DNA of 64,000 bases from Allomeiothermus silvanus DSM 9946 (lineage in GTDB: Bacteria; Deinococcota; Deinococci; Deinococcales; Thermaceae), in the NCBI RefSeq assembly GCF_000092125.1, contig NC_014212.1, forward strand, positions 3,000,279 to 3,064,278, in the 5' to 3' direction. The position numbers and the translations under genes were made by a program. Below are positions 4,422 through 54,273 of the stretch, in pieces; within the stretch, counting starts at the first letter, position 1; each line of letters starts with the position of its first letter. The notes beneath the pieces were generated by a model, which did no database searches, was not told the origin of the DNA, and worked only from the letters and a program-made list of their open reading frames with translations.

Positions 4422-4460
4422 AGTGAAGCCGCACCCGCGGCCCGGCGATGCCGGTACTCA
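4422..4460 (+). repeat. 39-bp double-hairpin element, copy 1
   Basis: Begins AGTGAA and ends GCCGGTACTCA. The first stem is GCCGC/GCGGC, the second CCGGC-GAT-GCCGG. It lies antisense inside the aminotransferase relic, where it contributes 13 codons (HEYRHRRAAGAAS) without shifting the frame. It shares the ends and second stem of the other copies, but its first stem differs in sequence while keeping its pairing. Confidence 0.85.
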
Positions 4461-4619: not shown

Positions 4620-4658
4620 TGAGTACCGGCGCTAGCCGGGTCGCTATGCGAATTCACT
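4620..4658 (-). repeat. 39-bp double-hairpin element, copy 2
   Basis: On the minus strand it reads AGTGAATTCGCATAGCGACC and continues to GCCGGTACTCA. The stems are TCGC-ATA-GCGA and CCGGC-TAGC-GCCGG. It adds VNSHSDPASAGTQ to the aminotransferase relic in frame. It is base-identical to the copy in deoC at 8655-8693. Confidence 0.9.
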
Positions 4659-7915: not shown

Positions 7916-8698
7916 TCAGTAACCGCTCTTCAAACCGCCCTCACCCGTCGCCCGAACCCCTCCGGCCTTGCGCGCTTTGAACTCCTCGAGGATCGCGGCG
8001 GTGGCGGTAGCCCCTACCCGGGTGGTGCCTACGCGCATCACCTCGAGCAAGGCATCCAAGGTGCGCACCCCGCCCGCTGCCTTGATTTGCACGTGCGGCG
8101 AGACCGCCTCGCGCATGAGTTTGAGATCCTCGAGGGTCGCCCCGGAGGGGGCGAAGCCGGTGGAGGTCTTGACGAAATCGGCTCCCGCCTGCTCAGAAAG
8201 CTGGCAGCCCAGCACCTTCTGCTCCTCGCTCAAGTAGGCGTTCTCGAGGATCACCTTGACCAAGGCCCCACCCCTCTTGGCGACTTCGACCACCGCCTGG
8301 ATGTCCCCCAGCACGTACTCGGCCTCGCCGCCCCGCAACCGACCGATGTTGATGACCATGTCCAGCTCGACCGCGCCCTGCTCCATCGCCAGCTTGGCCT
8401 CGAAGACCTTGGTGGCGGTGGCCGAGCTTCCGTGGGGGAAGCCCACCACGGTTCCGACCTTGACGCTCGAGCCCCGCAATGCCTTGGCCGCGAGTTCTAC
8501 GTCACAGGGCTTCACACACACCGAGGCCACCCGGTAGCGCTCGGCCAGCTCGCAGCCCGCGAGGACCTCGGCGGGGGTGAGTTCGGGGCGCAACAGCGAG
8601 TGGTCGATCATCTGCGCGACCTGTTCATAGCTGAGGGTTTCTGCCGTAATCTCTTGAGTACCGGCGCTAGCCGGGTCGCTATGCGAATTCACTGGCAT
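7916..8698 (-). CDS. deoC: Deoxyribose-phosphate aldolase with a 13-residue N-terminal insertion
   Basis: The 260-residue DERA TIM barrel carries the Schiff-base lysine in FVKTSTGFA, the second lysine in IKAAGG, and VELDMVINIG. It cleaves 2-deoxyribose 5-phosphate to acetaldehyde and glyceraldehyde 3-phosphate in deoxynucleoside catabolism. The N-terminus reads MP, then VNSHSDPASAGTQ, then EITAETLSYEQVAQMIDHSL. The inserted 13 residues are a 39-bp element directly after codon 2. An ORF without them would begin MPEITAETL. The insertion is outside the barrel and is probably tolerated. The gene precedes, and is likely cotranscribed with, the sugar isomerase genes read from the right. Confidence 0.88.
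   Translation of the reverse strand: MPVNSHSDPASAGTQEITAETLSYEQVAQMIDHSLLRPELTPAEVLAGCELAERYRVASVCVKPCDVELAAKALRGSSVKVGTVVGFPHGSSATATKVFEAKLAMEQGAVELDMVINIGRLRGGEAEYVLGDIQAVVEVAKRGGALVKVILENAYLSEEQKVLGCQLSEQAGADFVKTSTGFAPSGATLEDLKLMREAVSPHVQIKAAGGVRTLDALLEVMRVGTTRVGATATAAILEEFKARKAGGVRATGEGGLKSGY
8655..8693 (-). repeat. 39-bp double-hairpin element, copy 3 (in deoC)
   Basis: Identical to the copy at 4620-4658. It lies two codons after the deoC start and is read in frame as VNSHSDPASAGTQ. Because it lies so close to the start codon, its two hairpins could also affect translation initiation. Confidence 0.9.
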
Positions 8699-21989: not shown

Positions 21990-22237
21990 AGGTACATCCT
22001 CAAGGTTCTCCTAGAATGGTAGTGCGAGCTTCTCGTACCCTTCTAGCTTAGGAGTGCTGCGGTGAGGGAACGACCGGCTTTAGCACCTTAGCTAGGCTGC
22101 CCCTTGGTATTCAGAAGTTGGCTCGGTCAATAAGCCAACGCAGGGCAAGCTCATCAGAAGCCTTACGTGTGCCTACCCCAGGGTGACACATTTTGTAGCG
22201 CAACCCCTCCACCAATCCTCTTCCCGAGGATGCCTTT

Positions 22238-22639
22238 ATGAGAAAATCCCTTCAGCAAAGCCGAGGATGCATTCTTTTGGTGGACGATGAACAAGCCCAC
22301 CGTCACTTCCTCGAGCGTGGGCTGCGCTACGAGGGGTATCAGGTACGGTTGGCGGCGGAGGGCCAGGAAGGGCTCGAGCTGGCCCTCATCCACCCCCCCG
22401 ACCTCATCCTGCTCGACATCATGATGCCCGGCATGAACGGCTTCGCAGTAGCGCGGGCTTTACACGAAGCCGGACTGCGCGTTCCTATCGTCTTTATCAG
22501 CGCTAGCGACGAGCCCGAGACCTGCGAGGAGGCCCGGCTCATGGGGGTGCCGCTCTTGGTCAAGCCCGTGAACCTGGACGATTTGCTGGGACAGATCGCC
22601 CAAACCCTGCACGTCCGCTTCCCCGTATCTCCCCGGTAG
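22238..22639 (+). CDS. Single-domain response regulator
   Basis: The 133-residue receiver domain has the acidic pair in LLVDDE, the phospho-accepting Asp in LILLDIMMPGMNG, the conserved Ser in FISAS, and the Lys in LVKPV. No output domain is present. It resembles the receiver at 27255-27671, which is paired with a kinase, so that kinase could act on both. The 248 bp upstream hold no gene; the 46-bp palindrome lies just downstream. Confidence 0.85.
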   Translation: MRKSLQQSRGCILLVDDEQAHRHFLERGLRYEGYQVRLAAEGQEGLELALIHPPDLILLDIMMPGMNGFAVARALHEAGLRVPIVFISASDEPETCEEARLMGVPLLVKPVNLDDLLGQIAQTLHVRFPVSPR

Positions 22640-22666
22640 AATTCCTGTCTCGCGCATGCAGGTGTC

Positions 22667-22712
22667 ATACCAGATTTGGTTGATTCGGTAACGAATCAAC
22701 CAAATCTGGTAT
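22667..22712. repeat. Perfect 46-bp palindrome (two 21-bp arms, 4-bp loop)
   Basis: ATACCAGATTTGGTTGATTC (plus G) is followed by GTAA and then its exact reverse complement. There is no T run, so this is not a standard terminator. The outer bases ATACCAGATT resemble ATACCGGATT at the left flank of the IS630 remnant (3204-3213), suggesting a miniature element or joined inverted ends. It could still stop transcription after the response regulator. Confidence 0.85.
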
Positions 22713-22780
22713 TACCTGCGGCTCTCTTTACGCGCACCCCGTCCAGGGCAACCCACGGAATATAGAGCTTTGCTCTGGCC

Positions 22781-22825
22781 AGGCTCGCTTGAGCGACCGC
22801 CCCAAGGCTCGCTTGAGCGACCGCC
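22781..22825. repeat. Two 21-bp direct repeats, period 24 bp
   Basis: AGGCTCGCTTGAGCGACCGC (plus C) occurs at 22781-22801 and 22805-22825. Each contains TCGCT-TG-AGCGA, a small hairpin. The area between the palindrome and the subtilase gene (22713-22892) is otherwise empty. Confidence 0.8.
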
Positions 22826-22892
22826 AGGGGGCTATCCTTCCCCCACCCATCTCGCGGCCTGGGCGAGGACTGCCGCCCCGCATCCCAGCCGC

Positions 22893-24413
22893 TCAAAAAC
22901 ACCATGCATTGGCCGGATTCACGACCTGAGCCGCGTCCACCAGACCATAACCGGTTTGTGGTTCCCAGCCGTCGGGCCCGTGCTGGGCGGCGCTGCGCAG
23001 GCAGCGGCGAACCTCAGCTAGGCGCTGAGCGGCGGGCTGCGGTTTTCCTAAAGCATTCTGCTGGTACAGGTAAAGCGCTACTACGCTGCTAATAAACGGG
23101 GCCGCGAATGAGGTGCCAAAGCCGTTGGCATATTCCCCTTCCTGCCGCCCGCTAAGGGTGGTGATCTCACTTCCAGGGGCCATAAACGCAAGCCCTTGAC
23201 CATAGTTGGAAGCAGCACCTTGGCTCCAAACCGCTCGGGAACGGGCCATATTGGTAGCTCCCACTGCGATCACCCAGGGGGAAGAAGCGGGGTAGTCTAT
23301 AGAGTCGGCCCCCTCATTGCCGCTGGCCGCCACCACCACTAGTCCCTTCTGGGTGGCCTGCTCGAGCACCGCCTCCAGGTAAGGGTCACGAAAGCCCTGG
23401 CCTTGGGGGGCGGCTAGGGCCAGAGAGAGGTTTAGGACCTGCGCCGGGTAGGGATTGACAAAAGTCTGCCCGCCGATGGTAGTCGCCCCTAAGGCGTATT
23501 CCACCGCTTGGGCGATCTGCAAAGTGCTAGCCTGCCCGTGGGCATCAAAGACCTTGAGCGGGAGTACCTGAGCCAGGTTATACGCCGCCCCCGCCAGCCC
23601 CCACCCCCTGTCGGTGACCGCCGCGATGACCCCGGCTACGGCGGTGCCGTGGTTGCGCCCAGCCCAGTCACCGGGTGTAACCCGCCCCTGCACCGGCTGG
23701 GGTGCTGCTAGGTCATCCCCCACCAGGTCCAGCCAGCTGGCAGAAGGGGTGAGGTTAGGTTTCAGATCGGAGCGCTCGGTGTAGAACCCGGTGTCGGCCA
23801 CTGCCACCACCGGCCTGGCACAACCGGGGGTAAGTTGTCTCCAGGCTTCTTCTAAATTTAGCTGGGCGAAGATAGGGCGCTGGTTGAGCGGGTAGTCGGG
23901 GCTGTTGGGGGGAACCGCAAGGCCGCTGGGACGGTAGAGGTACTCAGGCTGGACGTAGCGGGCTCCGCCTCGCAACAGCGCCCGTGCGGCCTCGAGTTCA
24001 GCTCCGGGGCGCACGGTGTAAAGCTGCCAGCCCCGCTCCCCCACCGGCTGCAGGGGACGAGCCTCCAGCCGCTCGAGTTCGGGCTGCACAGCGCTTTGCA
24101 AGCGCATGCCCTCCTGGTAAACGATAACCCGTCCCGGCAGGTGGGGAAGGTCAAAGCGTCCCACTCCCTGCACAGCCGGGCGCAAAACTTCGGGTGCTGC
24201 CGCAGCCGCCGCTTGGAGGCACCCCCCCGCCGGCGCAAGCGGAACCCCTGTGCTTTGCAAAGCCGAGGAACAACCCGCCAACAGGCCAGCCAACAACAGC
24301 CAGGTTCCCCACTTGGCCACGTGTCCAAAGGTAGCGCGGTTCCACCTTCTCAAGCCCGAAGTGCGTTGGGGTGAGTCATGCAGCAACAAAGGGTTTTCCA
24401 CAAACTTGCGCAC
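22893..24413 (-). CDS. Subtilisin-like serine protease, lipoprotein
   Basis: The S8 catalytic triad is clear: Asp in VADTGFY, His in NHGTAVAGVIA, Ser in GTSFAAPF, plus the oxyanion Asn in AASGNEG. A lipobox (LLAGLLAGCS) follows a hydrophobic stretch, so the enzyme is exported and lipid-anchored. Residues ~90-190 look like an inhibitor-type propeptide. I favour the GTG at 24413 (MRKFVENPLL) because GGGAGGTGG lies directly upstream. The frame extends open to 24539, and a start nearer the signal (about 24320) is possible. It is divergent from the second SARP-like gene. Confidence 0.87.
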   Translation of the reverse strand: MRKFVENPLLLHDSPQRTSGLRRWNRATFGHVAKWGTWLLLAGLLAGCSSALQSTGVPLAPAGGCLQAAAAAAPEVLRPAVQGVGRFDLPHLPGRVIVYQEGMRLQSAVQPELERLEARPLQPVGERGWQLYTVRPGAELEAARALLRGGARYVQPEYLYRPSGLAVPPNSPDYPLNQRPIFAQLNLEEAWRQLTPGCARPVVAVADTGFYTERSDLKPNLTPSASWLDLVGDDLAAPQPVQGRVTPGDWAGRNHGTAVAGVIAAVTDRGWGLAGAAYNLAQVLPLKVFDAHGQASTLQIAQAVEYALGATTIGGQTFVNPYPAQVLNLSLALAAPQGQGFRDPYLEAVLEQATQKGLVVVAASGNEGADSIDYPASSPWVIAVGATNMARSRAVWSQGAASNYGQGLAFMAPGSEITTLSGRQEGEYANGFGTSFAAPFISSVVALYLYQQNALGKPQPAAQRLAEVRRCLRSAAQHGPDGWEPQTGYGLVDAAQVVNPANAWCF

Positions 24414-24640
24414 CCCGACCACCTCCCGTGGTGGGGTGCAACCGGGCGGTGTTCGGCCGGTTGCACCACTAGCTCCCTGTGCCCCTTGGTGCCCATATTG
24501 GGTGACACAGTTCGTCGCCTCCGAACCCCCCGCGGACACATCCTGCCGCTAGGGTCTACAGCTACTCTGCCCGAAAAAGGGTTGGATTAGGGTTGCACCG
24601 GGTGAACGTTGCCCCGTAAACACCGCCCGCGCGTTTACAG

Positions 24641-27674: not shown

Positions 27675-28829
27675 ATGCCTTTGTACTTGCAGTTGGCCTT
27701 GATCTACGGTACTGCCCCTGGCGGTGCTCTTGAATGGCTATCGCGGCAAGGCGAACCTGCTCGAGGGAATCGGGGCTTACCAGTGAAGGGCCAACAGGCC
27801 CCCGGCGATGCCGGGACTCAGGGGCATGCCCCACCATCCCAGCCTGCCGGGGTCCCCTTCGAAATCAGCCACCGCACCTTCTTACGCGCCGTCCACCCTG
27901 ACGACCACAAACGCCTGAAAACCAAAGTGCGGCAGGTACTCGAAACGGGCGAACTCTACGAGGACGAGTTCCGGGTAGTCTTGCCGGGCGGGCAGGAGCG
28001 CTGGCTGGCGGTGCGCGGACGGGTCTACCGCAACCGCAGCGGGCAGCCCGTGCGCATGGCCGGGATCACCCTCGATACCACCCAGCGCCGTCTGGCTGAG
28101 GAGGCCCTACGCCAAAGCGAAGCCCGGCTGCGCGAGATCAACCAAGCCCAGCAGCGTTTCGTGGCCGACGCCGCTCACGAACTACGGGCACCGCTCACGG
28201 CCATCCAGGGCAACCTCGAGTTGCTCTATCGCTACCCGGAGATGCCCCCCCAAGACCGCATGGAGTCGGTGATCCAAGCCCTCCAGGAGGCCCGCCGGCT
28301 GGGACGGCTAGTAGCCGATATGCTGGCCTTGGCGCGGGGCGACGCGGGACACCGGCTCAAGCGCGAGTCCATCGAGCTAGACCGGGTGCTGCTGGAAGCT
28401 TTCGAGAGCACCTGCCACCTCAGCCAGCAGCACCGTCTTACCCATGAGCTGGAGCCCGTGCGGTTGGTGGGAGATCGGGATTACCTCAAGCAGTTGGCGC
28501 TGATCTTGCTAGACAACGCGCTTAAGTACACCCCACCTGGGGGGCAAGTGCACTTGGCCCTCTCCCGTCAGGAGGGCCACGCCGAGCTGCAGGTTTCAGA
28601 TACCGGAAGCGGAATCGCCCCCCAGGACCTTCCCCACGTCTTCGACCGTTTCTACCGGGCCGATCAGTCGCGCCGCCGCGACCCTGGGGGGAGTGGGCTG
28701 GGGCTTTCCATCGCTAAGTGGATTGTCGAGCAACACGGCGGGGAAATCTGGCTCGAGAGCGAACCCGGCCAGGGCACCCGTGCCGTCGTGCGGCTGCCCT
28801 TGCCTGGGGCGGGGCGCAGTGCGTTTTAG
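27675..28829 (+). CDS. PAS-domain histidine kinase with damaged N-terminus
   Basis: The 384-residue protein contains a C-terminal piece of a PAS domain (FLRAVHPDDHKRL to MAGITLDTTQRR), a HisKA domain with the phospho-His in ADAAHELRAPLTAI, and a HATPase domain (DNALKYTPPGG, DTGSGIAPQDLPHVFDRFYR, GSGLGLSI). The first ~60 residues look abnormal. In the +1 frame, bases 27712-27783 read LPLAVLLNGYRGKANLLEGI and then GAYQ, a likely original segment. A 39-bp element follows directly, and the front half of the PAS domain is absent. The catalytic core is intact. Confidence 0.8.
   Translation: MPLYLQLALIYGTAPGGALEWLSRQGEPARGNRGLPVKGQQAPGDAGTQGHAPPSQPAGVPFEISHRTFLRAVHPDDHKRLKTKVRQVLETGELYEDEFRVVLPGGQERWLAVRGRVYRNRSGQPVRMAGITLDTTQRRLAEEALRQSEARLREINQAQQRFVADAAHELRAPLTAIQGNLELLYRYPEMPPQDRMESVIQALQEARRLGRLVADMLALARGDAGHRLKRESIELDRVLLEAFESTCHLSQQHRLTHELEPVRLVGDRDYLKQLALILLDNALKYTPPGGQVHLALSRQEGHAELQVSDTGSGIAPQDLPHVFDRFYRADQSRRRDPGGSGLGLSIAKWIVEQHGGEIWLESEPGQGTRAVVRLPLPGAGRSAF
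27782..27820 (+). repeat. 39-bp double-hairpin element, copy 4 (in the histidine kinase)
   Basis: AGTGAAGGGCCAACAGGCCC runs on to GCCGGGACTCA. The stems are GGCC-AACA-GGCC and CCGGC-GAT-GCCGG. It is read as [13 protein letters not shown] in the kinase frame. It stands exactly where the N-terminal homology breaks. Confidence 0.88.
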
Positions 28830-52844: not shown

Positions 52845-53813
52845 ATGGCCTTATTCGCCGTGGACAAACCGCTCGGCATCACCTCTCACGACGTGGTGGA
52901 CGCTGCCCGCAGGCGCCTTGGAACCCGCCGGGTGGGGCACACCGGAACCCTCGACCCACTGGCGACGGGGGTGCTAATCCTGGCGAGCAACAGTTCGACC
53001 AAGCTGGTTCCTTTTCTCTCCGCTGAAGATAAGGAGTACCTGGCCTGGGTCTCGTTTGGTGCGACCACTGAAACCCTTGACGCCGAAGGCCCGGTTACGG
53101 CGGAGGCCCCGGTGCGGTTCAGCAAAAAAGACCTCGAGACCACCCTCCCACACTTCCTTAGCCTCACCGAGCAGGTACCCCCCGCGTATTCGGCGGTCAA
53201 GATAGGAGGGGTCAAGGCGTACGAAGCCGCCCGAAAGGGAGAGAGCCTGGAACTCACCCCCAGGCCGGTCAAGTACCTCGAAGTTACCCTCCTGGCCTTC
53301 GAACCTGCCCCCAAAACCTACCGCATCGGCCCCTCACCGAACGGTTGGGAGATCACCCCAGTGAAAGGCCGACAGGCCCCCGGCGATGCCGGTACTCAGC
53401 GGGGCCGCCTGGTCCAGCTTCCCAGGGCACTCGGGACGTACCCCACCGCGGTGATTCGTTTGGTGGTGGGTAGCGGAACCTACGTGCGGGCTTTCGCCCG
53501 TGATCTGGGAGAACTTCTGGGTACGAAGGCCTTCTTATCAGGGTTGGTACGAACCCGGGTGGGCCGGGTGGGGCTTGAGCGCTGCGTGCCCCTGGAGAAA
53601 ATTGACCCGGAGCACCCCCTAGAGGAGACCCAGGCCCTCTCCTTCCCGCTGGTACAACTCTCTCATGCCGAGGTCAAGCGGGTGCTCGAGGGTGTTCCGC
53701 TCCCAATCCCGGCCCAAGGGTACGTGGCCCTAGTAGATAACCGCCGTCAGCTCATCGCCATCGCCGAGGGGGATGGCTTCAAGCTCAAGATCAAGCGGGT
53801 ATTCAAGAAGTAG
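52845..53813 (+). CDS. truB: tRNA pseudouridine-55 synthase with a 13-residue in-frame insertion
   Basis: The 322-residue protein has [13 protein letters not shown], the catalytic Asp in [52 protein letters not shown], and a C-terminal PUA-like domain. It modifies U55 of tRNAs. The insertion [13 protein letters not shown] (53361-53399) sits between NGWEITP and RGRLVQLP, in a loop of the catalytic domain. The gene is otherwise intact, so a functional enzyme that tolerates the element is expected. ATG 52845 lies 9 bases after TACAAT, with TTGCGC 18 bp further upstream. Confidence 0.92.
53360..53398 (+). repeat. 39-bp double-hairpin element, copy 5 (in truB)
   Basis: AGTGAAAGGCCGACAGGCCC continues to GCCGGTACTCA. 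The stems are GGCC-GACA-GGCC and CCGGC-GAT-GCCGG. It adds exactly 13 codons to truB. Confidence 0.9.
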
Positions 53814-53979
53814 CTACGAGCAGGGTGGTTTAACAAGTGTCATAAGAAATCCTTGTGATGTGTTCTGCTATTTGGGGCCCCACCCGCGGCGTAGTTTCGC
53901 GGCGAAAGCCGGGTAGCGAGTCCAGGGGAGCAGGCGTAGCAGAGGGGCTTTGGCTTGCCCTAAAGCGGAACGCTACCCC

Positions 53980-54220
53980 TGAGTACCGGCGCCAGCCGGG
54001 GGCCGATGGCCCTTCACTTGAGTACCGGCGCCAGCCGGGGGCCGATGGCCCTTCACTTGAGTACCGGCGCCAGCCGGGGGCCGATGGCCCTTCACTTGAG
54101 TACCGGCGCCAGCCCAGGTTACCGGCAAGCACTAGGCCCGCTTGAGTACCGGCCATCGCCGGGTCGCTATGCGACTTCACTTGAGTACCGGCCATCGCCG
54201 GGTCGCTATGCGACTTCACT
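53980..54220 (-). repeat. Array of 39-bp double-hairpin elements (five complete, one partial)
   Basis: The complete units are 53980-54018, 54019-54057, 54058-54096, 54143-54181 and 54182-54220. A partial unit starts at 54097 and diverges after about 18 bases. The first three are identical (stem GGGCC-ATC-GGCCC on the minus strand). The last two are identical to each other but carry another first stem (TCGC-ATA-GCGA), like the copies in deoC. Unit ends abut without spacers, so this is not a CRISPR array. The surrounding gap (53814-54273) has no other supported gene. Confidence 0.92.
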
Positions 54221-54273
54221 AGGGCCGGGCTTTGCCTGTGCGAGCCGGTATGGCCACTCGGGCGGGGTTAATA

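Follow-up and report, generated by a model that had tools for sequence, protein, structure and literature searches.

Palindromic repeats lying in frame within the protein genes of Rickettsia have been known since 2000, and the pneumococcal BOX repeat is built to the layout boxA-boxB(n)-boxC. The insertion sequence IS608 inserts 3' of a TTAC that is retained in its left flank, and the target is chosen by a guide positioned 5' of the hairpin (PMC5934647). The cleavage site of TnpA-REP is a CT adjacent to hairpins (PMC8266576), and the palindromic repeats of Rickettsia are found in frame within unrelated protein genes (PMC10969869).

The 39-bp unit described here comes from a window of 64,000 nucleotides of Allomeiothermus (Meiothermus) silvanus DSM 9946 (contig NC_014212.1, positions 3,000,279 to 3,064,278) and can be compared with each of these systems. 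Like the elements of the IS200/IS605 type (IS608, ISDra2), it lies 3' of a short left-flank target, shows no target duplication and has terminal hairpins; unlike them, it measures 39 nt, consists of two abutting hairpins and carries no gene, and the analysis found no parent element that shares its ends. With the REP sequences and their TnpA-REP (RAYT) enzymes it shares short, high-copy hairpins and conserved bases 5' of the stem, but it has no GTAG, it has two hairpins, many of its copies lie within genes and no RAYT gene flanked by it was seen. The Rickettsia elements are likewise palindromic and in frame within open reading frames; they are about 150 bp long, whereas the short form here is 39 bp and the host belongs to a different phylum, and the Thermaceae unit shows both empty sites and a rule for its target. 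In the BOX repeat, too, a short internal unit occurs in variable number within a larger dispersed repeat, but the 39-bp unit also appears to move alone into genes and sits in two unrelated host repeats. By analogy, the unit appears to work like a non-autonomous element of the IS200/IS605 type, and we assign it as a member of neither that family nor the Rickettsia palindromic elements, since no cognate enzyme with the same ends was found and since its size and host differ from those of the latter.

The sequence-only reading had described three identical tandem units followed by two of another type at 53980-54220, and exactly this arrangement is present: three identical 39-bp units, a segment of 46 nt and a second type of 39-bp unit in two identical copies, with TRF scores of 270 and 160 for the array repeats. 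The pattern TTGAGTACCGGCNNNNGCCGG, with at most three mismatches, has 10 matches in the window against 0.52 expected, a number reached in none of 100 shuffles. The whole nested structure lies on the forward strand within one larger MITE-like repeat, family A, at 53871-54270. The left module of this repeat (53871-53979) has the terminal sequence TTTGGGGCCCCACCCGCG, its left end is the inverse of the right-end CGGGCGGGG, and the module is found in whole or in part at seven further loci (L046, L058, L059, L061, L066, L067 and L071). The three type 1 units, each with two 5-bp hairpins, follow at 53980-54018, 54019-54057 and 54058-54096. Behind them, at 54097-54142, stands a partial unit with about 28 nt, which had been taken for unrelated bases and which proved to be the interior of a recurrent longer form: these 46 nt agree exactly with the beginning of the 147-bp long form that is intact at L059; they recur at L047, and L051 has a slightly different version. 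The two type 2 units (54143-54181 and 54182-54220) sit nested inside the long form, at its CGCT|AGGG site, and they are followed by a truncated remnant of its right part (54221-54257), which matches L047 and L059 beyond the nested site, and by the family A right terminal sequence, beginning TCGGGCGGGGTT (54258-54270). With the 46 nt recognized as the left part of the long form, the whole stretch resolves into seamless modules, each starting with TGAGTA and ending with CACT or CGCT. A CRISPR array was rejected as a candidate, as the units abut directly and have no spacers.

Each unit is composed of TGAGTA, a first hairpin, a second hairpin that adjoins it directly, and TTCACT; both stems are 5 bp long and the loops 3-4 nt. 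The ends TGAGTA and TTCACT do not form extended inverted repeats, and subterminal hairpins are present at both ends of the unit. The length is 39 nt in nearly all copies, even where the loop lengths are swapped (4+3 or 3+4). The first stem hardly varies, and the second occurs as GGGCC/GGCCC, GTCGC/GCGAC, GCCGC/GCGGC and other variants. Among 54 distinct sequences, 250 of 270 cells of stem 2 are paired, compared to a shuffled mean of 174 and a shuffled maximum of 204, where the shuffles ignore the relatedness of the sequences, though the stem changes come as two-sided blocks. Judged by this pairing, the second hairpin is kept by compensatory changes (G-C, C-G and T-A exchanges).

The long form, about 80-150 nt in length, has the same ends as the 39-mer and extra sequence between them. 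When 108 interior bases are taken out of the 147-bp long form, an exact 39-mer is left, and the 81-bp long form at L225 reduces likewise. One and the same internal site of family A is occupied by arrays of short units in some copies and by the 147-bp long form in others. The nested site CGCT|AGGG is empty in L059, holds one unit in L047 and two units in L051 and in the window; L047 minus one 39-mer is identical to L059 over 147 bp, both loci belonging to the same genome. The comparison of these loci therefore resolves the window array into three short units and a long form, of which the left part and a truncated right part are present with two short units nested between them.

The number of units is variable at equivalent sites within one genome: 1, 1, 2, 3, 4, 4 and 5 across copies of family A and 1, 2, 2, 2, 3 and 6 across copies of family B. 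Both host repeats have terminal inverted repeats, AACCCCGCCCG/CGGGCGGGGTT in family A and ends of the type ATACC[GA]GATTC in family B. The latter was seen at six loci in M. silvanus (L053, L055, L063, L064, L068 and L069); in the draft assembly of M. hypogaeus (G043, L136-L175) it apparently has about 100 copies, many at contig ends, and the copies read there hold one 39-bp unit each. Some tandems mix unit types (L134 and L111), and one orthologous site holds a single unit in M. silvanus (L060) and two different units in M. granaticius (L134). Tandem amplification and insertion beside existing copies, both of which had been proposed for the window array, are supported by the range of one to six units at equivalent sites and by the mixed-type tandems, and similar arrays, whose absence would have spoken against the proposal, do exist elsewhere. 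The identity of units within each block, from which that proposal had been drawn, is real but is weaker evidence than was claimed, since the same units are identical between distant loci too. The further suggestion that the array is a special source of copies finds no support: single copies are widespread, and of the roughly 100 family-B copies of M. hypogaeus those read have one unit each.

Many single units lie in frame within genes (truB, folK, mutS2, deoC and tnpB). Reading through them, in several frames, gives inserts of 13 residues, such as VKSHSDPAMAGTQ in FolK, VKPHQRPGHAGTQ in a MutS2-like protein and LSTGASRGPMALH in TnpB, and several of the host genes have Pfam support. The unit within truB of the window (53360-53398, reverse strand) adds 13 residues in frame and is also found in the sister species (G001); in the alignment with solved TruB chains, the segment holding the insert stays unaligned. 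One aminotransferase-like open reading frame contains two single units, at 4422-4460 (reverse strand), where the site is empty in M. granaticius (L372), and at 4620-4658 (forward strand), where it is empty in L373 and L374 at CCCC|AC. Another single unit is located near the 5' end of deoC (8655-8693, forward strand), at a site that is empty in G001, and a diverged one in a histidine-kinase-like open reading frame (27782-27820, reverse strand). An amidohydrolase gene of C. chliarophilus harbors two tandem units in frame. Long forms of 81-110 bp also occur within open reading frames (L225, L224, L389 and L388), and most of the long forms measured (81, 93, 117 and 147) are divisible by three. One IS605-type element of the M. 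silvanus genome (L072, G000:C1:3135000-3137000) has an interrupted tnpA and a tnpB with an in-frame 39-bp unit.

Alignments with relatives yielded eight pairs of filled and empty sites that differ by an exact 39-bp gap and show no target duplication: folK (CCCC|GGCG), a VWA/BatA gene (CCCC|AAGC), a mutS2-like gene (CCGC|TCAC), deoC, a BadF-type ATPase gene, a hutI-like gene (CCCC|GCGC) and the two sites in the aminotransferase-like frame. At the amidohydrolase site, 78 bp are present in C. chliarophilus and none in G001; for the A2M site (G001) and for L121 no clean empty site was found. The bases of the left flank are already present in the empty sites, they are C-rich, and the insertion lies directly 3' of them. 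Of 42 sites de-duplicated by hand, 32 have a C at position -4, 32 have one at -2 and 37 have a pyrimidine at -1; the full CNCY motif occurs in 21 of the 42, compared with about 2 expected, and half of the sites thus fit it only loosely. Taken from these alignments, the unit is inserted precisely 3' of a pre-existing C-rich C-N-C-Y motif, without duplication. A 2-bp CT target duplication was ruled out by the empty sites, for example by folK (CCCC|GGCG), where there is no CT at the junction. In a by-eye comparison, TGAG can oppose both conserved C of CNCY, the middle base being unmatched. Also by eye, and with the replication origin not located, the orientation of units along the chromosome shows no clear strand bias.

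The genome-wide figures rest on pattern searches and on the stretches retrieved with them. The exact gapped pattern has 67 copies in the genome of M. silvanus DSM 9946, 108 in M. hypogaeus (G043) and a handful in Calidithermus and other Meiothermus; the reversed pattern, used as a control, gave counts near zero, and none were found in the sampled Thermus-like genus (g5) or in the other families sampled. A scan of about 85,000 species returned Meiothermus (hypogaeus, taiwanensis, granaticius, rufus and MAGs), Calidithermus and one Thermaceae MAG, and two scattered matches outside these carriers look like chance. Among the relatives, the carriers are Meiothermus, Allomeiothermus and Calidithermus, and the pattern is confined to Thermaceae apart from such chance-like matches. 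Matches in a viral contig (L362), a Lachnospiraceae MAG (L292) and Flavobacterium (L352) were rejected as looking like chance; GAGTA is preceded by A, not T, in L362 and L352. No earlier description of the 39-bp element was found in the literature searched, which covers few subscription journals, and a search of a plasmid collection with the unit gave no match. As a separate observation, the 348-kb plasmid contains stretches of about 2 kb that are 99.8-99.9% identical and inverted (G000:C2 13500-15500 versus 254000-256000, L074/L078), as well as a second such pair (22000-24000 versus 245600-247600, L075/L077), which suggests a large inverted duplication.

We consider it fairly probable that the 39-bp unit is a minimal non-autonomous mobile element which is moved in trans by a Y1 transposase in the manner of IS200/IS605, stacks upon itself and is subject to recombination. 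The donor would be a folded single strand, on which a Y1 (HUH) transposase would act in trans, and the unit would insert 3' of a CNCY-type tetranucleotide retained in the left flank. The CACT at the 3' end of the unit fits CNCY, so that copies could stack head to tail; it would serve as the target for the next copy, and spacerless arrays would start in this way. Recombination or slippage between identical units would then alter their number, and such recombination probably contributes. At the window locus the outcome would be a MITE-like repeat with a long form, three short units having come to stand before the long form and two inside it. We put forward more tentatively, as a possibility somewhat short of even, that this 39-nt twin hairpin travels as a folded single strand through the action of a Y1 enzyme in trans, plants 13-codon inserts in conserved genes of thermophiles and, its own 3' end being a target, stacks upon itself; it would then perhaps rank with the smallest mobile units known.

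A rival view derives the arrays wholly from one resident unit, multiplied by replication slippage or unequal recombination, with no self-targeted insertion. This explanation has a real but minor share of the probability: identical units in one array fit recombination alone and in this respect speak against the Y1 model, most arrays hold identical units, the unit number varies among copies of the same larger repeat, and the L060 unit looks like the first half of unit 1 joined to the second half of unit 2 of the L134 pair, as a deletion between repeats would leave. However, the tandems at L134 and L111 hold clearly different unit types, a single unit has no neighbour with which to misalign, and the sampled family-B copies in the draft assembly of M. 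hypogaeus have stayed at one unit. Slightly less probable again is movement by another enzyme (a serine or DEDD recombinase, or a DDE transposase) or along an RNA-templated route, perhaps as in the Rickettsia palindromic elements. No cognate Y1 enzyme was found, which favours such a route: the Y1_Tnp (PF01797) genes of this genome resemble IS200/IS605 TnpA and none was seen with the ends of the unit. The one Y1 element compared across its copies begins TTGAC, and the presence of Y1 across Thermaceae tracks the elements only loosely. On the other hand, the combination of hairpins with a short pre-existing target in the left flank and no target duplication is typical of IS200/IS605, and the missing target duplication argues against most DDE elements.

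A classical REP/RAYT system (REPtron) would account for small hairpins at high copy number, and the C-Y left boundary is compatible with TnpA-REP cleavage at CT. Nevertheless we regard it as improbable: GAGTA and not GTAG stands before the hairpin, none of the Y1 genes read is flanked by the unit or by two inverted units, copies lie within genes, and there are two hairpins per unit. The least probable explanation by far is that the array is a functional structured RNA or a terminator region of truB. The strand does fold better than shuffles (z -2.85), but no Rfam family matches the array, and the same modules are present at dozens of unrelated places and within genes. In the sister species G001, truB and the Lrp-type gene are both kept at about 83-84% DNA identity, and truB contains the same unit there; the gap of about 118 bp between these two genes contains neither the family A repeat nor the array, which indicates that the array is not part of a conserved truB function. 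The structured transcript after truB that the sequence-only reading had considered is therefore not supported as a conserved one, a conserved RNA role behind truB seems unlikely from this comparison, and the array has no evident function there. The sole Rfam match in the window is a cyclic di-GMP-II riboswitch at 24446-24531 (reverse strand; 70.3 bits, above the gathering score), far from the array.

This one family combines exact pairs of empty and filled sites with a rule for the target, two forms (short and long) that share their ends, and probable self-stacking. The insertion mechanism is thereby directly testable in organisms unrelated to Rickettsia. The unit also represents a route by which inserts of 13 residues enter conserved enzymes (TruB, FolK, MutS2-like and DeoC). 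If true, the model of movement by a Y1 enzyme in trans would also suggest how protein-coding palindromic elements, the Rickettsia ones among them, come to be inserted.
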